From the NCBI GenBank assembly GCA_013138595.1, contig WTCM01000143.1:1-34022 (forward strand): a stretch of DNA of 34,022 nucleotides. The letters run 5' to 3'. The notes under the pieces are model-generated. The model was given only the letters and a program-made list of their open reading frames with translations. It searched no databases and was not told the origin of the DNA. This DNA comes from Methyloprofundus sp. (lineage in GTDB: Bacteria; Pseudomonadota; Gammaproteobacteria; Methylococcales; Methylomonadaceae). Shown here in pieces: positions 7,034 through 28,696 of the stretch; the first letter of the stretch is position 1, and each line of letters begins with the position of its first letter. The translations under genes were made by a program, and so were the position numbers.

Positions 7034-8863
7034 TTAAAACCCCTTTAAAAACCTCGATATATTTCTTGTTTTATAATCTCCCCAAGGCATCATTCTCTTT
7101 TCTGGGTAAGTCACATATAAAAACCGTTTTGCACGAGTAAAAGCAACATATAGATTGTTTTTTTCCTGCTTCAACTCAATACCACCATTACGCACAGCTC
7201 TATAATCTGGAAAAGTATCATTATCCATGCCCATAATAAAAACAATATCAAACTCTTGACCTTTCATCGTATGAACGGTACTTAATGTGATGCCAGAATG
7301 CTGTGCTAATGGATGAGTTTGCCCTAAAGCCATCGCATTTTTAAATTGATGCAATGATTTGTTATCTGTTTTTCTTGCATAGTTGTGCCAATGTTTCAAT
7401 AATTCATTAATATCATTGATGATCATATTTTTTTCATTTTCATCTTCAATATTTATATTATCTTTTAAACTTTCAAAATTCCTTTTCAAGTTACTTCCAT
7501 CGTCATTTAATTCAACCACTAAAATGATCACCTTTTTCATTGATGGGTCTAATATTAAAGGAACAATATTTTCTAAATTTACATTGCTATCCTCTATTTT
7601 TAATCTATTTAACAGCCGCTTTTTATGTAAAATATCTTGTGAATTCAATCTAGCTCTTAAGCCAAGATCAAATATTTTCATTAAATCAGATTCAAACCGA
7701 ATAGTTCCTGGAGTCATTTTGTAGTAGAAAGGCAGCTTATTTTCTACTAGCTGAGCCTCTAATTGATTAAAGATATATTTATTTCTTGCAAGTACCGCAA
7801 TTTTTTCATAAGAAATATCACCTTCAATATCCTCATGCTTTTTTAATGAAACTAATGATGTTATCTTATTAATAATCCATCTAGCTTCATCCCCCTCATC
7901 CTCTAAAGCTTTTATTTCAAAAATACCTGCTTTAACTGTTTCTGTAATATTTTCCACATCAGGAATGATTTTTCTTGCCGCCTCTAAAATAGCTAATGAT
8001 GATCGGTAATTTTCATTTAGCTCAAACACAGAGGGACTAAAGTCATGGACAAAGTGTTTATCCATGTAATCAGGAGAGGAGCCATTAAAGTGAAAAATAG
8101 ACTGATTAGGATCACCCACCATCATAATATTTTTAAATTCACCATTTGCTAATGCGCGTAAAAATTGATATTGAGCATTATTTAAATCTTGTGCTTCATC
8201 AATACAGATAGCAAAAAAACTTCGACGATATAACGCGGCTGTTTTAGGGTAATTTACCAATAAACTATAAGCAAGTAATAGCAAGTCATCAAAATCTATG
8301 GCATTTTGAGCGCGTAAAATATCTTGATAGTTTTGGTAGAGCAAAACGATATTTTCATCATCAGTATGTTGCTCAAGTTCATTGTCAGCAATTAATTCAC
8401 GCTTCACCTTTGAAATATAATTTAAAACACGATATCGAAAGTTTTTCTGTTCTTTACTACTTTGAGTTTTATATGTACCTGCATAGGAAGGCGTTTGATT
8501 AATGGCTTGTTCAATTAATTCTAATCTATCTGCTTCCTCTTCAAAAATATGTGGCATTTTTGTAAGACCAATTGAATGACCATGATTTTCTAAAATTGAC
8601 TGGCAAAAACCATGAAAAGTCCCGATAAAAACTCGTTTCTCTATTTCAGATATATCACTTAGCCGCTCCTTAATTTCTGCACCTGCTTTATTGGTAAAGG
8701 TGAGTGCAAGTATTTTTTTATTGGTGTTGCCAAGTAAATAACGAATTCTTTCTGTTAAAATTCGTGTTTTACCGCTTCCTGCACTGGCTTTAACATAAAT
8801 TGCACCATTTTCTGCAAAAACAATTTCTTGTTGTTTTGGTGATAAGTCAATGTGAGGTGTCAT
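7034..8863 (-). CDS. gajB: UvrD/Rep-family SF1 helicase, GajB-like
   Basis: VKASAGSGKTRIL (Walker A), CIDEAQDLNNAQYQFLRA, MMVGDPNQSIFHFNG, STVHTMKGQEFDIVFI, NNLYVAFTRAKRFLYV; partner of OLD nuclease with ATGA overlap. Confidence 0.87.
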   Translation of the reverse strand: MTPHIDLSPKQQEIVFAENGAIYVKASAGSGKTRILTERIRYLLGNTNKKILALTFTNKAGAEIKERLSDISEIEKRVFIGTFHGFCQSILENHGHSIGLTKMPHIFEEEADRLELIEQAINQTPSYAGTYKTQSSKEQKNFRYRVLNYISKVKRELIADNELEQHTDDENIVLLYQNYQDILRAQNAIDFDDLLLLAYSLLVNYPKTAALYRRSFFAICIDEAQDLNNAQYQFLRALANGEFKNIMMVGDPNQSIFHFNGSSPDYMDKHFVHDFSPSVFELNENYRSSLAILEAARKIIPDVENITETVKAGIFEIKALEDEGDEARWIINKITSLVSLKKHEDIEGDISYEKIAVLARNKYIFNQLEAQLVENKLPFYYKMTPGTIRFESDLMKIFDLGLRARLNSQDILHKKRLLNRLKIEDSNVNLENIVPLILDPSMKKVIILVVELNDDGSNLKRNFESLKDNINIEDENEKNMIINDINELLKHWHNYARKTDNKSLHQFKNAMALGQTHPLAQHSGITLSTVHTMKGQEFDIVFIMGMDNDTFPDYRAVRNGGIELKQEKNNLYVAFTRAKRFLYVTYPEKRMMPWGDYKTRNISRFLKGF

Positions 8864-10602
8864 GATTCCACCTCTATTTTTAATATGGTAGAAATCTTAG
8901 TAAATAGATCAATAACCTTTGGGGGAAGGTCTTTATTACTCACTACAATTTGTTCTGCTATGGAAGGGCCGTATTGAGTTTTATTGCTTGTAATGGTTTT
9001 ATATAATTTGTCATCATCATAATTTTCTACGATTTTTAAATACTGTTCACTTATCTTACTAAGGTAAGCAATACTTTTCTTAATTTCATCACTAAAACCA
9101 TCATTAATTAATTGTTTCTCAAAATCATTACCTTCATCTAGAAAGATAATATAGTCAGTTTCGTTCTTACTTTTCAGAGAAGCACATTTAAAAAACTGTT
9201 CTCTAATACTTTTTTTTACATTTTTTTCGGCATCACTAAAAATAAGCCAGGGGATTTTCAAGGCTTCTACAAAACGTAAAAATGGCAAATAACTCTTATA
9301 ACTACCTACCCCAACAAAATCTATTCCTATTTCAATATGTGATTTACCAAAATATTTTTGAGATAAAATTGGCAGAGCCAACTCCTCTGTCTCTCCTTCA
9401 GCAAAAATAATGATTTTGGAAAAAAATATCTCCCCTCTAGTATTGATAACTTGTCGGTTTATTTTTCTGATTTCTTCTGAAGTTAAGATATTAGTATCTA
9501 TTTGACCACAAGTGACAGTTTCACCTTTGTAAAAGCTACGTATTTGACTCAATTCAGCAGTAGCAGCAATATAAGGCGAATGGGTGGAAATGATTTTCTG
9601 CCCTACTATTGCATCTATTTGCCCATAGAGTTTTTTCTGAGCATTAGGGTGTAAGTGAGCCTCTGGCTCTTCAATGGCAAGAATAGGAAAAAATACAGAT
9701 TGTTCTTTCTCAGCATTAATGGATAACAACGCAATAAATGCCTTCAATGTCAGCAGCGAAGACCAGCTCCTTGTTCCCATTCCATGATATTCCATTGAGA
9801 AAGGTTCTTTCTGGTCGGAATAATAGATTGTTAAACCTTTGCTCAAATCTCGGATTTTTTTAGTGAAAGGAGTGATTTCTATGCCTTCGCTGTGGCTATC
9901 CATTGCGGTATCAAGTTCTTTTAAACTTGTTTTAATAGTGGATAAAATATCACTACTACTCACCGCTTTTTCATTAAGTAATTCTATTTGTTGCTCAATG
10001 TCTCTAATATTATCAGCTGAATACTCAATTTTAGATAACATTTTACCAAGGTAAGAATTTCTTAATTTTGTATCTTCCAATATATCTCGTTGTGCATCCA
10101 TGTAGAAAAAAGGCATTTCGTCAAAATTAAATCCAGATTTATTTCCATTATCACGCTCAAACCAGTGAGTCTCATCTTGTTTAAATTCAGACCAGCTTTG
10201 TAAAATATATTGCTGAGTTTTGAAGCTATTCTTTATTGAATCAAAAATAATAATGGTTCTAAGAGGGATAAAAGCATGACCAGTATCATCATGACGAATT
10301 CTATCAGTAGTCAATAATACTTCCCAGTTTTCTAAAAAATCTTCATTTCTGATACCATTATCATTAGTAGGTACAATCAAAAGGTCAATGATTATTTTCT
10401 CGTTTACTGAACTACCTTGAATAAAAAAATCATCTTGTGAAATAAATTGACGATTCCCTAACGCTATCTGTAATGCCTTTAGGAAAGAGGTTTTTCCTGT
10501 ATTATTCATCCCTGTCAAAATAGTTGTTTTTTCAAGCTCAACTTCGATATTTTTTAAGCCCCGAAAACCTGAAATACGAACTGTTTTTATTAAAATACTC
10601 AT
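8860..10602 (-). CDS. gajA: OLD-family ATP-dependent endonuclease (AAA ATPase + TOPRIM), GajA-like
   Basis: FRGLKNIEVEL, LTGMNNTGKTSFLKAL (Walker A), ILAIEEPEAHLHP (Walker B), STHSPYI, TOPRIM IIFAEGETEELALPIL. Confidence 0.88.
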   Translation of the reverse strand: MSILIKTVRISGFRGLKNIEVELEKTTILTGMNNTGKTSFLKALQIALGNRQFISQDDFFIQGSSVNEKIIIDLLIVPTNDNGIRNEDFLENWEVLLTTDRIRHDDTGHAFIPLRTIIIFDSIKNSFKTQQYILQSWSEFKQDETHWFERDNGNKSGFNFDEMPFFYMDAQRDILEDTKLRNSYLGKMLSKIEYSADNIRDIEQQIELLNEKAVSSSDILSTIKTSLKELDTAMDSHSEGIEITPFTKKIRDLSKGLTIYYSDQKEPFSMEYHGMGTRSWSSLLTLKAFIALLSINAEKEQSVFFPILAIEEPEAHLHPNAQKKLYGQIDAIVGQKIISTHSPYIAATAELSQIRSFYKGETVTCGQIDTNILTSEEIRKINRQVINTRGEIFFSKIIIFAEGETEELALPILSQKYFGKSHIEIGIDFVGVGSYKSYLPFLRFVEALKIPWLIFSDAEKNVKKSIREQFFKCASLKSKNETDYIIFLDEGNDFEKQLINDGFSDEIKKSIAYLSKISEQYLKIVENYDDDKLYKTITSNKTQYGPSIAEQIVVSNKDLPPKVIDLFTKISTILKIEVES

Positions 10603-15893: not shown

Positions 15894-16169
15894 TTATGAA
15901 AATATTTCATCTAATGAATTTGCCGTTAAGATACGACCTACCCATACATCCAGCTGTTGCTTATCTGCTGAATTAACTTGTAATTCTATTGCTTCGGGGA
16001 GTTTAATAAATTTTAGTTTAAGTAGTTTTAATAAGGTTTGAGCTTCACCTCGTGCTTCACCTCGTGCTTCACCTCGTGCTTCACCTCGCGCTTCACCTCG
16101 CGCTTCACCTCGTGCTTCACCTCGTGCCTCACCTTCTCGAATCCACTGTGGTATACGGTCTGCTAACAT
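15894..16169 (-). CDS. Candidate intragenic small protein (Rpn_S-like, 91 aa), in-frame internal start within the Rpn gene
   Basis: ATG at 16169 (residue 244, MLADRIPQWIREGEAR...) preceded by GGAG at 16179-16182 with 9-nt spacing. Confidence 0.4.
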   Translation of the reverse strand: MLADRIPQWIREGEARGEARGEARGEARGEARGEARGEARGEAQTLLKLLKLKFIKLPEAIELQVNSADKQQLDVWVGRILTANSLDEIFS

Positions 16170-16898
16170 TGTTTTAATCTCCACTAAATCGTTAATCTCA
16201 GTTTTTTGCTGTTGCAATTCATCTGAAGGACGTAGTAATACTCTATTAATCCAAATACTAAAACTACGTCTTAATCGAGTCTGTTCGGGACTTGATAGCC
16301 ATTCTATCAAGCTAGAAATAACCTCAAGTATATCATCATCAGAATTGGAATTTTCTAAGCGAAAAATAGCGGCAACTAGATTTTTTAGTGGAATTAATTC
16401 ACTGGGCTTATAACTTCCCTCATCCAATATTAAATATTTCAGTGACGGTAAATATTGCTCTAAACCACCAGGCAAACTAACAATTAAATCTTTTAATTCT
16501 GTTGCTGCATTCCAGCGTTGTTGACCATTATAAAGAACCACTGGAAAAACAGGCGGTAATAATTTATCAGCGGGTAGTTGTTTAGCTTTAATAAGGTCTT
16601 GATACAACAAGCCCATATAAGTCATTAGCCTGACAGCCATAAACTTATCGATAGTTGATTGAAATTCAATTAATAAATAAACATAAATCCAGCTTTGCTG
16701 ATATTTAACACGCCAAATCACATCATCTTCACGCCCACGTAAATCATCACTGACATAACTTCCTGAAACTTTTTCTAAAGTACTAAAGTCCAGTTCATTT
16801 ACCCATTCTTCATGCACAAAGCCCTGCAATAAATCAATAATAATTTCAGGTTCAGAAAAAAGCAATTTATAAGAATGATCGTGACTCGCCTTTGCCAC
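15894..16898 (-). CDS. Rpn-family recombination-promoting nuclease / PD-(D/E)XK putative transposase
   Basis: HDHSYKLLFSEPEIIIDLLQGFV, VSDDLRGREDDVIWRVKY...WIYVYLLIEFQSTIDKFMAVRLMTYMGLLYQDLI, PPVFPVVLYNG; GTG start overlapping the ccmC TAG by one base. Confidence 0.88.
   Translation of the reverse strand: MAKASHDHSYKLLFSEPEIIIDLLQGFVHEEWVNELDFSTLEKVSGSYVSDDLRGREDDVIWRVKYQQSWIYVYLLIEFQSTIDKFMAVRLMTYMGLLYQDLIKAKQLPADKLLPPVFPVVLYNGQQRWNAATELKDLIVSLPGGLEQYLPSLKYLILDEGSYKPSELIPLKNLVAAIFRLENSNSDDDILEVISSLIEWLSSPEQTRLRRSFSIWINRVLLRPSDELQQQKTEINDLVEIKTMLADRIPQWIREGEARGEARGEARGEARGEARGEARGEARGEAQTLLKLLKLKFIKLPEAIELQVNSADKQQLDVWVGRILTANSLDEIFS
16042..16134. repeat. Coding tandem repeat, about 8 copies of 12 bp (GEAR units)
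   Basis: gcttcacctcgt/gcttcacctcgc units; encodes GEARGEARGEARGEARGEARGEARGEARGEA. Confidence 0.95.
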
Positions 16899-20631: not shown

Positions 20632-21996
20632 TTAAACCTCAATACTATACTTGCTCAATAAAGCATATAAGGTCGGTCGTGCCACTCCTAATAACTTAGC
20701 CGCACTAGAAATATTATCAGCATGCGCTAAAGCACGTTTAATCGCGGTGGTTTCAGCCTGTTCGCGCACTTGTTTTAAATTCAGCGGTAAAGCGTTAAGC
20801 TCCTCATCATTACTCACACTTTCCAACTCTAATGATAAGTCATTGGCATCAATATAAACGCCCTCAGCCATCACCACGGCACGCTTTATTTTATTTTCTA
20901 ACTGACGAATATTGCCTGGCCAAGCATATGTCTCTATCGCCTTAACAGCCTCACTGGTAAAGCCCTTGATACTCAATTTCTCTTGAATAGCAATACGCTG
21001 TAATATGGCTTTTGCAATCACAATAGCATCGCCTTCTCGTTCTCTTAAAGGCGGAATATTAATCACCATTTCACTAATTCGATAATATAGGTCCTCCCTA
21101 AATTCACCTGCCTCAATTAAGCTTTGTATTTTTTGATGAGTCGCACAAACAATACGTACATCCACAGGAATTTCACCTCGCCCACCTAAACGCTCAATCA
21201 CACGCTCCTGAATAAAACGTAACAGCTTTGCCTGTAGAGAAAAAGGTAAATCACCAATTTCATCTAAGAAAAAAGTACCTCCATTCGCATATTCTATCTT
21301 GCCTATTGTCTGCTTAGTCGCTCCCGTAAAAGCGCCTTTTTCATAGCCAAACAATTCGCTTTCTAATAAATTCTCAGGAATCGCTGCACAATTAATAGCC
21401 ACGAAAGGCTTATCAGCACGTGGGCTCAATTCATGAATGGCACGTGCTAGTACCTCTTTACCTGTACCACTTTCTCCCAATAGTAAGGTAGTAATCGAGC
21501 TAGGGGCAATTTTTTCTATCGTCCTTGATAATTTTTGCATTTTTTCACAACTAATAATCAATCCTGATAAAGGCTCATTCGCTTGACTTTGTAACTTGAT
21601 ATTATCTTGCTCTAAAGCGGTTAACTGAAATGCCCTTGCCACAATTAAGTTCAACACATCAATATCCACAGGCTTTTGATAAAAATCATAAGCCCCCATA
21701 GCGACCGCTTTTACTGCATTATCTCTATCATCATTCCCTGTGACGACAATCACTTTCGTTTTAGGTGCTAGCTGTAAAATTTCTGCTAATGTCGCAAAAC
21801 CTTCACTTGCATTAGTCGGATCTGGAGGTAAACCCAAATCCAATGTCACAACAGAGGGAGAAAATCGCCTTAAAGCATCAATTGCCGACTTTCTATCACC
21901 CACGATCACTACTTTATAATCAGCAAAGCTCCACTTAAACTGCTTTTGTAAGCCTAAATCATCCTCAACAATCAATAAAACTTTTTTATCATCCAT
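20632..21996 (-). CDS. prsR: PEP-CTERM-associated sigma-54-dependent response regulator PrsR
   Basis: LIVEDDLGLQKQFKWSF, LDLGLPPDPTNASEGFATL, GAYDFYQKP, GESGTGKEVLARAIHELS, ELFGYEKGAFTGA, Fis-type HTH at C-terminus. Confidence 0.9.
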   Translation of the reverse strand: MDDKKVLLIVEDDLGLQKQFKWSFADYKVVIVGDRKSAIDALRRFSPSVVTLDLGLPPDPTNASEGFATLAEILQLAPKTKVIVVTGNDDRDNAVKAVAMGAYDFYQKPVDIDVLNLIVARAFQLTALEQDNIKLQSQANEPLSGLIISCEKMQKLSRTIEKIAPSSITTLLLGESGTGKEVLARAIHELSPRADKPFVAINCAAIPENLLESELFGYEKGAFTGATKQTIGKIEYANGGTFFLDEIGDLPFSLQAKLLRFIQERVIERLGGRGEIPVDVRIVCATHQKIQSLIEAGEFREDLYYRISEMVINIPPLREREGDAIVIAKAILQRIAIQEKLSIKGFTSEAVKAIETYAWPGNIRQLENKIKRAVVMAEGVYIDANDLSLELESVSNDEELNALPLNLKQVREQAETTAIKRALAHADNISSAAKLLGVARPTLYALLSKYSIEV

Positions 21997-22005
21997 TCAT
22001 TTTCT

Positions 22006-24099
22006 CTAAATAAGTATTTGCTTATTAATGTTACCTTGAGTATCACAGCTTATCAACGGGTATTTAAGACTAAAGACCGTTCCTACACCTAATTCACTTT
22101 CAACAGCAATCATTCCACTTTCGTTTAAGATATACTCTCGCACTTCATACACCCCTATCCCCATACCTGCATTACCTTTTGTGGTATCAAAAGGTCTGAA
22201 CAAACGTTCGCTAATAAATTTCTGATCCATCCCAACGCCTGTATCAATAATATCTATCAATGCATAGCCAGCCTCTATCGCAACATGAATTTTAACTATT
22301 CCGTCGTCTGCAGTTGCATCTTGAGCATTCTGAACTAAATGCCCTAGTATGGCTATAAAGCGTTGCTGATCGGCTCGTATCAAGCATTCAGATAAGCGGC
22401 AATCAACACTTAGCTTTGGCAAATTGCCTGCTTGCTGTAAAACAATATCGGCTAATACATCAGGGATATTAAGCGTAATTTTCTGTTGTTCCTTGACCTG
22501 CCCTTTTTTAAGCTGTGCTAATAAGTACTCCATTTTATTCACCACATTTTCCAAGGTATCAATCGCATCATCAATAAATTCAGGGTTATGTCGATGCTGC
22601 TCTGCATTGCGTACAATCATCGAAACCTGTGCCACTAAATTTTTTAAATCATGTACCAAAAAAGCCGAAAAACGACTATAAGCTTCAAACTGTCTCGCTC
22701 GCGACAAATCATCTGATACTTTACTTAAAGCTAGCGCATTAGCAAGCTGCAAGCCTACTGTTTTAAGTAAATCATGGTCTTCGTGATTAATCTGACGCTT
22801 AACCAGTGGGTTACTTAACACCACAAAGGCAAGCATTTTATTTTTTTGAAATAAAGGAATAATCATCCAAATATTTTTCTTACCCAACCACGCGGATAAA
22901 TCAACGTCATCATATATTTCAGGGGTATTTTCAAATTCACAAAAATCAATCACCCACTGCTTTTCATTTAAAAATTGTATAAAAGCATCATTCGACTGAA
23001 AAATAGTATCAACAGAAAAACCTAAATGCTGTTCATCGGCAAAATAAAACTGACCTGTGTCATTCACTAACCAAAGCCCCCCTCCCCTACTTCCTGCTAA
23101 GTTAGCAAGTGTTTTAATGACAAACTGAGTGAGTTCATCCCATGAATCTAAACTGGCAATCTCACGGCTTAATTTAATCCACTCTTCGCGGTAATCATAA
23201 TTATGCTGAAAGAAATGCGTATTAAAATACACTTTAAGATAAGCACGAATTTTCCCAGTTGTAAACACAACAACCACTAATAAAACAGCGAGAAAAATAA
23301 AGAAGGTCTGAATAATATCGCTCCAGACTCCCCCAAAATCTTTAATATAAAATCCCGCTAAAGACATCAAGATCATATACAAACCTGTACCAAAAAGTAC
23401 CGTGGTATGCATCACAACGGTATGAGAAATAGTCACTTGTTGTTCTGAGTCTTGCAAGCGCGTAAACGAGATCGCTAATAATGGTACGCATAATGCGTTA
23501 ATTAAACCCCTAGAATTCCACAAAACAAAATCTAAGCGCTCAAATAAGATAGATTTACTAAACACAATAAAATCAAAGGAAAAAATAGCGGCTAGCCCTA
23601 GACATAAATATTTAATCGCCCAGCGCTGATCCTTATTCACACTACGATAGAGCTGCTCCACCAAAATTAAACCAATAATCGAAAAACTTAAATGCGTAAA
23701 TAAACGTATATCACTCATATAAAGCTTGGTTATATCTAACAGGTCAACCGATAACTCAACAGCACCACTAAAGAGAACCCAAGCGATTAAAAACAGCGTA
23801 TAGCGTGATCTAATTAAAAAATCAAAATTCCCCTGAAACAGCTGTCTGGAAATCAAAGTGCCTAAGAAAAAGAACCAAACCGCATTACGTAAGGTTTCAA
23901 ATATAAAAACATCGGCAATATAAACAGTAGCATGGGTTATCGCATAAACAACCGCCCCCATCCAGACAATACTTGCTACGATAGCTAAGATAAATTGCGG
24001 TACAAAGGCATTTTTCTTAAAGCGAAAAATAGCCCAAGGAAGTAATACCAAAAAAACTAATAAGCCGATTGAATAACTGTAAAGCGCAAATATTTCCAT
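22006..24099 (-). CDS. prsK: PEP-CTERM-associated sensor histidine kinase PrsK
   Basis: Multiple N-terminal TMs, GAF region, FLVHDLKNLVAQVSMIVRNAEQH, HATPase with DTGVGMD; paired with PrsR. Confidence 0.88.
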   Translation of the reverse strand: MEIFALYSYSIGLLVFLVLLPWAIFRFKKNAFVPQFILAIVASIVWMGAVVYAITHATVYIADVFIFETLRNAVWFFFLGTLISRQLFQGNFDFLIRSRYTLFLIAWVLFSGAVELSVDLLDITKLYMSDIRLFTHLSFSIIGLILVEQLYRSVNKDQRWAIKYLCLGLAAIFSFDFIVFSKSILFERLDFVLWNSRGLINALCVPLLAISFTRLQDSEQQVTISHTVVMHTTVLFGTGLYMILMSLAGFYIKDFGGVWSDIIQTFFIFLAVLLVVVVFTTGKIRAYLKVYFNTHFFQHNYDYREEWIKLSREIASLDSWDELTQFVIKTLANLAGSRGGGLWLVNDTGQFYFADEQHLGFSVDTIFQSNDAFIQFLNEKQWVIDFCEFENTPEIYDDVDLSAWLGKKNIWMIIPLFQKNKMLAFVVLSNPLVKRQINHEDHDLLKTVGLQLANALALSKVSDDLSRARQFEAYSRFSAFLVHDLKNLVAQVSMIVRNAEQHRHNPEFIDDAIDTLENVVNKMEYLLAQLKKGQVKEQQKITLNIPDVLADIVLQQAGNLPKLSVDCRLSECLIRADQQRFIAILGHLVQNAQDATADDGIVKIHVAIEAGYALIDIIDTGVGMDQKFISERLFRPFDTTKGNAGMGIGVYEVREYILNESGMIAVESELGVGTVFSLKYPLISCDTQGNINKQILI

Positions 24100-24114: not shown

Positions 24115-24984
24115 TTAACGTTGCAAATACTTATAAAAATAAGCTTCTATGGCCAGCATTTGACGTTTAAAAGCGGCTTTTGAAGTATAAGGGTCATCTT
24201 TAATACGTACAAAATGTCGACATTCATGCGCCACACTCCATGCATAGATAGTCTTTACATAGTCGGCAAATTGTTGCTGAGTCAATACTTTCCCAGCCAG
24301 TTGTTGCGCGTTGGGAATCTGTAATACCTCCTGAGCGCGATGCTCAGGCCAAGCGGCGACAATTTTAATACTGCGCTCATACAAGGTCATATTATATAAA
24401 TACTCAATATCCCCTGTTGTTGGATTAGCCCAACAAGGTGCATGATCTAGCCCATTCCCCTGTAATTTATTCTGCAAATAAGCCACCTGCCCTTTTAACA
24501 ATTGCTCTGCTTGCTGAGTTTGTTCGACTTGTTGTAATAACTGCTGAAGCTGTAAGGCGGGTTGCTGTGCTTTGATTCCTGCTGCTTGTAAGGCTGCTAT
24601 TAATTGTTTATACACCTTTAAAGCATTTAATTCTGCCTGTAACTGTGCATTTTCCTGCTGTAAATGATCGCTGACTTGCGCGTTTTGTAACTTGGAGAAG
24701 AGTTCATCTAATTGCTGCCCGCTAGGCTTCGTTGCAAACCCTCCTGCTTGCATCATTCGACTTTCCAGTAATTGCAAACGCTTAAAACTCACATCAGAAT
24801 CACGTTTAAGCTGCTGCATTTCTGCCTGTAAACTTTGCTTTTCTTGTGCTTCTTGCGCTAATTCTTGTTGTGTTTTTTGTAACACCGAAGCGCTAATAAT
24901 CATCAGTAAGAAAAACATAATAAAACTGAGTTCACTTAAAGTGATGCTTAATAAAAAAGAGCGCCGCCCCTCAGTAGAAGCCAC
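24115..24984 (-). CDS. Uncharacterised single-TM coiled-coil protein, MotB/ExbD/ZorB-like architecture (candidate motor B-subunit)
   Basis: N-terminal TM LSITLSELSFIMFFLLMIISASVL with an acidic residue at the TM start, long coiled coil, novel C-terminal domain CWANPTTGDIEYLYNMTLYERSIKIVAAWP...HECRHFVRIKDD. Confidence 0.55.
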   Translation of the reverse strand: MASTEGRRSFLLSITLSELSFIMFFLLMIISASVLQKTQQELAQEAQEKQSLQAEMQQLKRDSDVSFKRLQLLESRMMQAGGFATKPSGQQLDELFSKLQNAQVSDHLQQENAQLQAELNALKVYKQLIAALQAAGIKAQQPALQLQQLLQQVEQTQQAEQLLKGQVAYLQNKLQGNGLDHAPCWANPTTGDIEYLYNMTLYERSIKIVAAWPEHRAQEVLQIPNAQQLAGKVLTQQQFADYVKTIYAWSVAHECRHFVRIKDDPYTSKAAFKRQMLAIEAYFYKYLQR

Positions 24985-24987
24985 GAC

Positions 24988-26442
24988 TTAAATTTGTCCC
25001 TTTTGAGTGGTGTTTGCCTTAAGGGTATCTTGCTGTATTTTGGCAAGATACTGTCGTGACTCGCGTAAAATACCCGCCATTTCATGTTGGTGCAGCTTTG
25101 CAAGGTCAATATCCACTTGCGCAACGCCACCGACACTAGTCATTAACTGAGTATGCTCTTCCATCATATTGTTAAAGGCTTCAAGGCGTTTAAAAGTCGA
25201 TGTCACATACATACCAAAGTCGGAAATTTGCTGCACGGTTTCGCGCGTCTTACTTAAAGCAAGTGCAATTTCCTGTAAATCATCACCAATCCTCACACCT
25301 GATTCGGTATTATTACCTATCGCATGAAAAGTAGTATTAAACTGCTGTGCGGCTTGTTGTATATTGTCCGATAAACGCTGCACATCATCAGGCAAAGAAA
25401 GCATCGCCGTGCCCATTTTGCTATAGTTTTGCATCGCTAAAGCAGATTGTGCGACTTGTTTTTCTAGGCTTGCTGAAATTGTTTTGGTATTGTCCGCTAA
25501 CGCAGCAACGCCTTGAACCACTTGTACAAAATCTTCATTCACTTTGGTATTTGCATATAATTTGTCATTAAACACACTGATAGATTGCACTAAAATATCG
25601 ACTTCAGCGACCGAACGCTCCAGGCTGCTAATAATGCTTTGCGTATGCTGTGCTATATCACTTTGCCCCGTGTTCAGCCCTTGCAATAGCTGCTGCGTTT
25701 TATCTAAACGTTCAACCAGTCTATCTAAAGGGATATCCAATTTATCCACAAATATGTCTTCAAGTATTTGCGTATTTTGCAGATTTTCTGCAAAACTATC
25801 AGCCGCGCGGATGATTGCTTGATGGCTGCTATGCGTATTTTTCAATAAGGCTTCAGCACTTGCCGCTGCATATTCATCAATCATCGCCAAACTTTGCTGC
25901 ATCCCTATCGCCGCATTATCAACCGATTGTTTAATCGCTATTTGAGTTTCTTCATGGGACACATCCAGTTGCATAGAAATCAACTTAGCTTTTCTAATCA
26001 TTTCATTCGCGGCATGTTCCACTTCTGTCATCATCTGCCGCTCAATGGTATTTAAATCAATTTGAAAATTATTGATAAAAATACGCACTGACAAGCCAAA
26101 GATAGTCGTGATCAAGGCTAAACTGAAATTTGCGGTTAATACGCCCGCATCCAAGTTATCACTTTGATAAAAATACAGTGAGACCACTAAGGCAACCAGC
26201 GTGAGTAAAAAGCCCAGATAATACACACTGTCTGCAAACTGCTCTAAAAAAACCGTCTCTTCACTATGCACATAGCCCAGCCACGTATAAATAATCATAC
26301 ACAGTAGCGGTAAGAGCACCGCGAGCAATGGCAGTTTAAAATACTGAGGTAAACAAACGCTTAAGACACCGCAGATTAAGGCGATAATAAACATTTTGCG
26401 TACATCAAGGATTAAACTTTGTTGTAATGATTGCTCACTCAT
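24988..26442 (-). CDS. Uncharacterised MotA/TolQ/ExbB/ZorA-like membrane protein with long coiled-coil tail
   Basis: Four predicted TMs, YYLGFLLTLVALVVSLYF ... ANFSLALITTIFGLSVRIFINNF (MotA/TolQ-like TT-x-x-G-L motif), then ~280-aa helical tail. Confidence 0.6.
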   Translation of the reverse strand: MSEQSLQQSLILDVRKMFIIALICGVLSVCLPQYFKLPLLAVLLPLLCMIIYTWLGYVHSEETVFLEQFADSVYYLGFLLTLVALVVSLYFYQSDNLDAGVLTANFSLALITTIFGLSVRIFINNFQIDLNTIERQMMTEVEHAANEMIRKAKLISMQLDVSHEETQIAIKQSVDNAAIGMQQSLAMIDEYAAASAEALLKNTHSSHQAIIRAADSFAENLQNTQILEDIFVDKLDIPLDRLVERLDKTQQLLQGLNTGQSDIAQHTQSIISSLERSVAEVDILVQSISVFNDKLYANTKVNEDFVQVVQGVAALADNTKTISASLEKQVAQSALAMQNYSKMGTAMLSLPDDVQRLSDNIQQAAQQFNTTFHAIGNNTESGVRIGDDLQEIALALSKTRETVQQISDFGMYVTSTFKRLEAFNNMMEEHTQLMTSVGGVAQVDIDLAKLHQHEMAGILRESRQYLAKIQQDTLKANTTQKGQI

Positions 26443-26448
26443 CGCTGC

Positions 26449-27267
26449 TTAACCATCAATTTTTTCAACTAAAGTCACTCGCCCGCCTATGGATTGGATA
26501 AAGTCTGCCCAGAAAAAAGCATGGCGCTTCGTTTGTATTTTTTCTTTGCCTTCCCTACGCACATATAAAATATTAACCTCCGCATTTTGTAAATCTGTAC
26601 TGATACGCTGGTAATAACTGCTTTTTTCTAACTGCGAAAAATCCATCCCGCCCCGATAATGTGACCATTCTGGCGTATGTTGCAACATATCAGAAATCAA
26701 TATAATTTGCTTGTCAGCCTGACTATTAATCACAGGGAAAGCCGTTAAAGCAATCGGCTGAAAGATTTCCATAATCGGTGAAAAATTTGCCTGCCCTGCT
26801 CGCATAAAACCTTTAATGGCTTGATCTAAGGGCTGTGCAAATTGCTCCAGCCAGCGTTGCTGTATGCGCTTAGGATTTTCATATAAGGCATTCGCATCCA
26901 CACCTGTACGTGGCGCACAGACCACAAAATCAGGCGCTATTGGCTTATCTTTTTGATTATCAATCACATAAATTGAAATCCGTGTCCCTGCCACTAAATT
27001 AGCTTTAAATTGACTAAAAAAACGCTGCAAAAATTGCTGTTGAACTTTATTATAAGCATCACTTTTATCAAACACTAAGGCGACATATTTAGGGCTTTGC
27101 ACACCAATAGGACAAAGCGTATCAGGATCATAAGCTAATTTAGTCTGTTGTAATTCAAAACGAAAAAAAGCGAGAAAGGCAAACACTGCTAAGACCCCAA
27201 TGATTAACAAGATTCCCCATAGATTTTTACGTTTAGCGGCTTGCTTTCTTTTGCTGTATCTAGGCAT
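26449..27267 (-). CDS. Uncharacterised membrane-anchored vWA-like protein
   Basis: N-terminal TM; YVALVFDKSDAYN (MIDAS-like), FSPIMEIFQ, IILISDMLQHTPEWSHYR; vWA-like alternation. Confidence 0.5.
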   Translation of the reverse strand: MPRYSKRKQAAKRKNLWGILLIIGVLAVFAFLAFFRFELQQTKLAYDPDTLCPIGVQSPKYVALVFDKSDAYNKVQQQFLQRFFSQFKANLVAGTRISIYVIDNQKDKPIAPDFVVCAPRTGVDANALYENPKRIQQRWLEQFAQPLDQAIKGFMRAGQANFSPIMEIFQPIALTAFPVINSQADKQIILISDMLQHTPEWSHYRGGMDFSQLEKSSYYQRISTDLQNAEVNILYVRREGKEKIQTKRHAFFWADFIQSIGGRVTLVEKIDG

Positions 27268-27271
27268 TTTT

Positions 27272-28696
27272 TTAGTCAGGGCTTATAGAGATTTGTTTAA
27301 AATCAGGATCAATCAGCTGTAATTGTTGAAAAAAGGAGACATATAATTTTTCTATCTCATTTGCACGCTGCTGACAATATTGAGGGAAATCACTAAATAA
27401 CTGCTTTTGTTGCTCCACGACTGCAATATCATCATGCCCACCTCTTAAGGTAAAGCTATTGACACTCTGCCAATCTTGCTCAAAATACACAGGTGCAGGC
27501 TGTTGACGAAAACGCCTGTTAATATCTCTATAACGATAAATTAAGGCATTCCCAGCGGCATGAAAATTAGCCATCCCCTGCTCATACTCAGCCACAAACA
27601 CTTGTTTATCTTCAACCAAATGCACTAAGCGAGTATGTTTTAGCAACACCATGTGCTTCATTTCTTCTAGTTTAATCAGAAAATCTTGACGAACTTCTTC
27701 TATTTGCGTGACCACTTCATCCCTTTGCTCATCATATTCTTCATGTACCACTTGCAAGCGCCGATGTAATTTACCATAACTGGGATAGGCATCATCGCGC
27801 TTATAGCCATCAATTAAAGCAAAAATAGCGAATAACAAACCCATAAAAAACAAAATCCACGAATTAAATTCAGCTAACTGCCAAGGTGTCGCGATAAAGC
27901 GCTGTACCGCTAATACCCCCGCTTCTTCGGGTTGCAAGGCAAAATAATCTCGATAATGTGCGACTAATAGATTAAACCCTACCACACAGGGAAAATAAAT
28001 GAGAAATCCCATATAAGCCGCTATTTTTTTCCCCCAAGAACGATGATTTTTATAGCGAAATAGCCAACCCATCATAAAAAAGGCAACCGATATATTAATC
28101 GCTGCAATAATCACCGCTTGCCCTATCCCGCCTAATAAACCTAACTCTGAGCCTTCTGCGAAAAAATAACCATTACCTACAGATTCTAACAGCCAAAATA
28201 ATAAAATCAGCGCAAAATATAAGATTTGTGAATCAGGGTAATGTGCCGTACGACTGAGTTTATGGTTGCTTTGAAAAGCATCAAACTCTTGCTGTATCGC
28301 ATCTAACTCTTGCTTCAGCTGTTTTAATAAACGAAATTCTCGCGCCATCAAGCTTTTAACCGCGAGTTTAGAATGTTCGGTATGATTGCTAATCAGTGCG
28401 CGCTCATCTTGTAAATTAGTATCCGCAATCGAGGTATTACGTAAGCACAGCCCTGCATTCACAAGATGGTTGATCGCCGCCATTTTATTTTCAAAATAGC
28501 TTTGTATTTCACGCTCTGCACCATCAGGGCTGGTCGATGTTTGCGCAGGCAGTTCATTCTCAGCCGCTTGTGTCGCTTTACCTTCCACCGCTAATTGCTT
28601 TGCAAGCTTTTCTAAATCAAAGTCGCAGGCACGACCAAGATCTGATTGACTGCGGTGTGAAAAATTCTTTTTGATTTTATTCGCCCAATTTTTCAT
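27272..28696 (-). CDS. Uncharacterised multi-TM protein with flanking coiled coils
   Basis: About four hydrophobic segments (LYFALILLFWLLESVGNGYFF, AVIIAAINISVAFFMMGWLF, etc.) between charged helical regions; first gene of tight four-gene operon. Confidence 0.6.
   Translation of the reverse strand: MKNWANKIKKNFSHRSQSDLGRACDFDLEKLAKQLAVEGKATQAAENELPAQTSTSPDGAEREIQSYFENKMAAINHLVNAGLCLRNTSIADTNLQDERALISNHTEHSKLAVKSLMAREFRLLKQLKQELDAIQQEFDAFQSNHKLSRTAHYPDSQILYFALILLFWLLESVGNGYFFAEGSELGLLGGIGQAVIIAAINISVAFFMMGWLFRYKNHRSWGKKIAAYMGFLIYFPCVVGFNLLVAHYRDYFALQPEEAGVLAVQRFIATPWQLAEFNSWILFFMGLLFAIFALIDGYKRDDAYPSYGKLHRRLQVVHEEYDEQRDEVVTQIEEVRQDFLIKLEEMKHMVLLKHTRLVHLVEDKQVFVAEYEQGMANFHAAGNALIYRYRDINRRFRQQPAPVYFEQDWQSVNSFTLRGGHDDIAVVEQQKQLFSDFPQYCQQRANEIEKLYVSFFQQLQLIDPDFKQISISPD

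Follow-up and report, generated by a model that had tools for sequence, protein, structure and literature searches.

A four-gene cassette of Methyloprofundus sp. predicted to encode an accessory ion-driven membrane motor that may act on incoming DNA

The ion-driven inner-membrane motors MotAB/PomAB, TolQR/ExbBD and ZorAB are the closest described relatives of the locus considered here. In TolQ and ExbB, threonines of the third and fourth transmembrane (TM) helices (those of GLFGTV and ALVATAIGL in TolQ) line the ion path and are essential. ZorA has a long helical tail, and Zorya couples its motor to a nuclease (PMC11890865). Two further classes of systems place a membrane-tethered von Willebrand A (vWA) protein beside a TolQ-like gene (Mol Biol Evol 2025, PMC12204202): vWA force transducers, with an SHLS motif and a motor-binding His in the TM helix of the vWA protein; and TPH-vWA/TolQ systems, in which a TM Asp is part of the vWA protein and a tolR/motB gene is lacking. 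The cassette described here (genes 1 to 4) lies on a 34,022-nucleotide (nt) stretch, below called the window, of contig WTCM01000143.1 from a draft genome (78% complete, 3.0 Mb) of Methyloprofundus sp.; coordinates are positions in this stretch, and labels such as L092 denote homologous regions in other genomes or plasmids. Our analysis suggests, with a probability of roughly 0.55, that the cassette encodes an accessory motor of the inner membrane, driven by ions and belonging to the MotAB/TolQR/ExbBD/ZorAB class, which acts on foreign DNA entering the periplasm. The motor part of this reading is well supported; the action on incoming DNA is what we infer.

The cassette comprises four minus-strand open reading frames (ORFs) at 24115-28696 separated by 4, 6 and 3 nt, positions and spacing that a first-pass annotation, made from the window sequence alone, had given exactly; the two segments it quoted, LITTIFGLSVRIF and SELSFIMFFLLM, are both present. 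By hydropathy, genes 1 to 4 encode four TM helices, one, a block of four, and one, respectively. That annotation had proposed a stator-type pair of A and B subunits, and this reading is borne out by the A-like features of gene 3, the TM acid and periplasmic end of gene 4, the vWA fold of gene 2 and the co-occurrence of the four genes.

The assignment of gene 3 as a divergent MotA/TolQ/ExbB channel subunit is well supported at the level of sequence. The whole protein matches PF01618 (MotA_ExbB) with an E-value of 4e-4 and 20.5 bits, the region passes the family cut-off of 22.9 bits in a six-frame search of its own genome (24.3 bits), and 11 of 18 gene 3 homologues match the same family. When the gene 3 profile is compared with TolQ/ExbB/MotA of its own genome by hhalign (E 4.3e-5), TM3 and TM4 fall in register, and Thr81 and Thr113 align with the TolQ/ExbB threonines. 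The resemblance to MotA, TolQ and ExbB claimed at first pass is thus upheld, and the helical tail, put there at ~280 residues, is in fact about 355 residues long; by analogy with MotA topology it presumably lies in the cytoplasm, as in ZorA.

Gene 4 had been likened to MotB, ExbD and ZorB, and the comparison holds, since the TM acid is kept as Glu or Asp in all homologues aligned or read and the periplasmic end is TolR-like by predicted fold in the window and OmpA-like in alphaproteobacteria. The last 110 residues were modelled with a predicted local distance difference test score (pLDDT) of about 95 as strand-strand-helix-helix-strand-helix-strand. In a PDB fold search with the gene 4 model, TolR (5by4) and ExbD (8vgc, 8vgd and 8p9r) came at or near the top by probability (0.57-0.77), with TM-scores by target length of 0.51-0.69. 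A profile comparison of gene 4 with ExbD was not significant, so what links the two is the predicted fold, together with the TM acid and the order of the genes. Cys184 and Cys255 of the C-terminal domain are invariant and, together with a conserved Cys in gene 2, would suit an oxidising periplasm. Alphaproteobacterial gene 4 homologues are annotated 'OmpA family', and in cassettes of the Rhizobium, Paracoccus and Tistrella types an OmpA-like domain replaces the TolR-like end. Many alphaproteobacterial relatives have such a domain there, with or without a staphylococcal-type nuclease (SNase) domain; PF00691 scores 19.1 bits in gene 4 of L092, under its cut-off. Placed on the gene 2 tree, the swap requires two changes. 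The first-pass annotation had described this end as an unrecognised domain in place of an OmpA one; the domain has a predicted TolR/ExbD fold, and relatives carry an OmpA-like one there. At the level of sequence or predicted fold, the periplasmic end of gene 4 is shown to be exchangeable: TolR-like, OmpA-like, or OmpA-like with SNase. Weak Pfam matches of gene 4 to CaKB and TcdA_TcdB, and PADLOC matches to DruC/JetC, were dismissed as located in coiled coils, and PDB sequence searches with genes 2 to 4 returned coiled-coil or irrelevant matches only. In Methylotuvimicrobium buryatense (L028 13352-13834, plus strand), a gene for a 160-residue glycine-rich membrane protein shares 4 nt with the end of gene 4.

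Gene 2 is, by predicted fold, a membrane-anchored vWA protein, as the first-pass annotation had it. Its model (pLDDT 88) has 66 PDB fold matches with E-values of 1e-3 or better, and those listed are vWA/I domains or vWA-containing proteins. Conserved residues include D67, C117, SP163-164 and SDML192-195, and the metal ion-dependent adhesion site is partial, lacking the second Ser of DxSxS. The homologue alignment contains neither a conserved His/SHLS signature nor a conserved acid in the TM helix of gene 2. A phage origin was rejected, as gene 2 has no match among 50,697 phage records.

Gene 1 is, judged from its sequence, a new four-TM family, with no match to a known family in family-model searches that included Pfam and NCBIfam. 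Its conserved motifs are E171, N175 and GLLGG, together with DDxYPxYG after TM4. It had been described as a TM/coiled-coil protein; as a correction, it has four TM helices in the middle of the protein. Gene 1 is conserved in all complete four-gene loci and also in more distant relatives in which genes 1 and 2 are present and genes 3 and 4 absent. Genes 1 and 2 form a module capable of standing apart from the motor. Two such motor-less pairs (L067 1076-4948 and L105 4940-9115) precede a TraG/VirD4-type coupling ATPase; the coupling protein of L105 is apparently split, and a large serine recombinase lies close by. Three loci from one gammaproteobacterial genus (L066, L068 and L069) carry a motor-less pair and, within a few genes of it, an alsT homologue; alsT adjoins the window cassette as well.

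The four genes travel together. When 60 relatives were searched with gene 3 alone, nine had a homologue, and in these nine all four genes occur in the same order, a few being incomplete at contig ends, with identities ranging from about 75% down to about 19-30%. Of the carriers that our searches returned, the nearest are methanotrophs, among them Methyloprofundus, Methylomonas and Bathymodiolus symbionts. Further loci, obtained by scanning species genomes with gene 2 and then profile-searching the loci found, nearly all show the four genes in order. Carriers of this order include Methylotuvimicrobium buryatense, Bathymodiolus symbionts, Glaciecola, Caviibacterium, Azoarcus, a betaproteobacterium, Rokubacteria, Geminicoccaceae and Marivibrio (where gene 1 is lost at a contig end). 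The first-pass annotation had let its proposal depend on such co-occurrence, and the conserved order indeed recurs in Gamma-, Beta- and Alphaproteobacteria, in Rokubacteria, in a metagenome-assembled genome of Thermodesulfovibrionia and on alphaproteobacterial plasmids. Genes 2 and 3 are found on 24 plasmids of Rhizobium, Sinorhizobium, Microvirga, Paracoccus and Tistrella, and every plasmid region opened (10 of 10) has the four-gene order. Of the genomes sampled, 9 of the 370 from gammaproteobacteria and 17 of the 385 from alphaproteobacteria have a gene 2 homologue, some of these being motor-less pairs. In the gene 2 tree the motor-bearing cassettes form one clade, except for one long-branched row. 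The cassette is therefore a real unit that is accessory and patchily distributed, and its patchiness and carriage on plasmids fit a role in conflict. The copy in Caviibacterium pharyngocola (L031 8427-10669) has genes 1 and 2 each frameshifted and genes 3 and 4 open, with a MADS-like defence gene nearby.

The link to DNA comes from a nuclease, an observation that is new and not visible from the window sequence alone. In three alphaproteobacterial loci (L092, L098 and L099) an SNase domain is fused in frame after the OmpA-like region of gene 4 (PF00565 in the L092 fusion, E 3e-13), and topology would place it in the periplasm. In eight more (L041, L043, L045, L046, L096, L110, L111 and L112) an SNase gene adjoins the cassette or stands one gene off, in varying orientation (upstream, downstream or convergent). 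Each of the 11 genomes tested has 0-3 SNase genes, which comes to about one per 2 Mb, a density at which we estimate that an SNase gene would lie within 4 kb of a cassette by chance in less than 1% of loci; in 4 of the 11, SNase is fused or adjoining. On the gene 2 tree the SNase state has to change five times, and the L098/L099 lineage gained its fusion separately from the L092 lineage (at least two fusions). This recurrent association favours an activity on DNA.

The cassette can be compared with the described motors part by part. With TolQR/ExbBD it shares the TM3-TM4 pair of gene 3 with both ion-path threonines, the TM acid of gene 4 and, in the window, the predicted TolR/ExbD-like periplasmic fold; it differs in the ~355-residue tail of gene 3, the long coiled coil of gene 4, its accessory and patchy occurrence, and its partners, which are vWA and four-TM proteins rather than TolA/TonB. 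Like MotAB/PomAB stators, it has a four-TM A subunit and a B subunit with a TM acid and, in alphaproteobacteria, an OmpA-like domain, but no flagellar genes are seen nearby, the tail is much larger and the vWA and four-TM partners are again distinct. The systems of PMC12204202 similarly have a membrane-tethered vWA protein beside a TolQ-like gene. However, gene 2 lacks the conserved TM His/SHLS of their first class and the conserved TM acid of the second, and a separate TolR/MotB-like gene follows gene 3, so the cassette fits neither class. In the open-access literature, outside which most subscription papers lie, we found no publication on the four-gene cassette. Among the few kinds of ion-driven membrane motors the cassette appears to be an additional lineage, unusual in its parts: a vWA protein, a new four-TM family and an exchangeable axle end.

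We propose that gene 3 would form a pentameric channel around a dimeric axle of gene 4 (5:2 stoichiometry), with Glu18 taking up and releasing ions as it faces the ring of Thr81 and Thr113, and that ion flow would turn the axle. Genes 1 and 2, coupled to this motor, may serve as its sensor or load at the envelope. The machine would sit at the cell wall, and its target may be foreign DNA arriving in the periplasm by phage or conjugation: the channel would open when a disturbance is sensed through the vWA protein and gene 1, and the axle, as it turns, would bring a periplasmic nuclease into play. In alphaproteobacteria this nuclease would be the one fused to gene 4 or encoded beside the cassette, and in cassettes of the methanotroph type either the motor itself or a nuclease not linked to it may be the effector. 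In its most specific form, as an envelope barrier in which the axle carries or deploys a periplasmic nuclease that cuts invading DNA before it reaches the cytoplasm, under control of a vWA/four-TM sensor, the proposal is tentative, and we would not bet on it at even odds. If true, Zorya would have its counterpart in the periplasm, one whose axle bears effector ends that can be interchanged. The natural nuclease-axle fusion makes directly testable the question of whether ion flow can control a periplasmic nuclease; if it can, this would be a layer of defence at a site where few systems are known.

Several observations weigh against an action on foreign DNA or against parts of the motor assignment. 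In the profile-searched loci, neither the window cassette nor any other cassette from outside the alphaproteobacteria has an SNase gene close by, so the DNA role may be something that alphaproteobacteria added. In the loci scanned, flanking genes are mostly housekeeping, and clear defence neighbours occur at few loci only; in a scan of 107 genes flanking 17 loci against PADLOC and Pfam, which gives counts without a background rate, the defence-type matches were MADS-like genes at one locus and one type I methyltransferase match. Defence is accordingly our leading guess and not a result. As to the motor, window gene 3 taken as a whole protein falls under the Pfam cut-off (20.5 versus 22.9 bits), and the E-values of the TolR fold matches of gene 4 are poor (0.3-1.1), which probably reflects the search of a short domain inside a long helical model. 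A rival reading is a motor that serves an envelope task unrelated to foreign DNA, such as cell-wall or outer-membrane maintenance or the handling of surface polymers or proteins, with the vWA protein as a force transducer or adhesin anchor and the alphaproteobacterial SNase as a later add-on for scavenging or biofilm DNA. In its favour, envelope motors typically have TolR-like and OmpA-like ends, a role as force transducers has been proposed for vWA proteins encoded next to TolQ motors (PMC12204202), few flanking genes are of defence type, and PrsK-PrsR of the XrtA/PEP-CTERM system adjoins the window cassette, with prsK-prsR just upstream of another. Against it count the relatives examined, in which prsK-prsR has no cassette beside it, as well as the patchy presence, the carriage on plasmids and an SNase link that recurs and extends to fusion with the axle; we regard it as a serious rival, though an improbable one.

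Two other explanations can be considered. The motor and SNase might nick extracellular DNA and pull it through the periplasm for nutrition or transformation, which would suit a periplasmic SNase carried on the axle, the two gene 1-gene 2 pairs that precede a type IV secretion-type coupling ATPase, and a ComEC-like gene 6 kb from one cassette. We consider such DNA uptake quite unlikely, as the loci read contain no linked gene for a pilus, DNA receptor or DNA channel, and ComEC is near one locus only. Less likely still is a distant Zorya subtype with cytoplasmic effectors encoded elsewhere in the genome. The cassette shares with ZorAB of Zorya types I and II the A/B layout, the long helical tail of the A subunit and, in alphaproteobacterial relatives, an OmpA-like, wall-binding B end, and Zorya likewise pairs a motor with a nuclease (PMC11890865). 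The nuclease linked here, however, is an SNase, periplasmic by topology and not cytoplasmic; the vWA and four-TM partners lie outside Zorya as described (PMC11890865); and the ZorA and ZorB models of PADLOC and NCBIfam give no match up to an E-value of 1, in keeping with the earlier judgement that the operon is not canonical Zorya. ZorC, ZorD and ZorE were absent among the matches listed for the flanks of the 17 loci (25 of 48 PADLOC families), and none was recognised in the window ORF list. Action on incoming DNA by an accessory motor thus remains our preferred reading.

Table 1. Cassette features and neighbouring loci in the window
Feature	Position	Strand	Description
Gene 1	27272..28696	-	474 aa; helical N-terminus, 4 TM (about residues 156-295), helical C-terminus
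Gene 2	26449..27267	-	272 aa; one N-terminal TM, then periplasmic vWA (integrin I-type) domain, as predicted
Gene 3	24988..26442	-	484 aa; MotA/TolQ/ExbB-like A subunit, 4 TM and ~355-aa helical tail
Gene 3 Thr81 (TM3)	26200..26202	-	Nearly invariant; pairs with Thr of GLFGTV in TolQ
Gene 3 Thr113 (TM4)	26104..26106	-	Invariant; pairs with Thr of ALVATAIGL in TolQ
Gene 3 helical tail, residues 128-484	24991..26061	-	Presumably cytoplasmic, side taken from MotA topology
Gene 4	24115..24984	-	289 aa, GTG start; MotB/TolR/ExbD-like B subunit: TM with acid, coiled coil, periplasmic domain
Gene 4 Glu18, N-terminal TM helix	24931..24933	-	Always Glu or Asp in the homologues aligned or read
Gene 4 C-terminal domain, residues 180-289	24118..24447	-	Predicted TolR/ExbD periplasmic fold
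PrsK-PrsR	20632-24099	-	XrtA/PEP-CTERM system, directly downstream of cassette
Rpn-type candidate	15894-16898	-	Recombination-promoting nuclease lookalike
Gabija pair	7034-10602	-	GajA and GajB

The immediate neighbours of the cassette (Table 1) are close enough that its transcription unit may extend to them: on the upstream side 11 nt separate the end of alsT from gene 1, and on the downstream side 15 nt lie between gene 4 and the start of prsK, which is followed by prsR; PrsK and PrsR are both equivalog matches. In one relative prsK-prsR lies upstream of the cassette (L016 1485-4920); the other relatives examined have prsK-prsR without an adjoining cassette, so this neighbourhood is local. 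Regulation by PrsK-PrsR was rejected: in none of 14 loci do the 400 bp upstream of gene 1 contain a sigma-54-type site. No such site was found upstream of alsT, and matches across the window are fewer than expected by chance. Given the missing sites and the relatives without the cassette, we treat PrsK-PrsR as a chance neighbour.

The window also holds a complete-looking Gabija pair about 14 kb from the cassette (PADLOC E-values of 4e-239 for GajB and 8e-208 for GajA). The Rpn-type candidate, identified by eye, has a run of GEAR repeats and lies between ccmC-like and ccmE-like genes of a cytochrome c maturation cluster.

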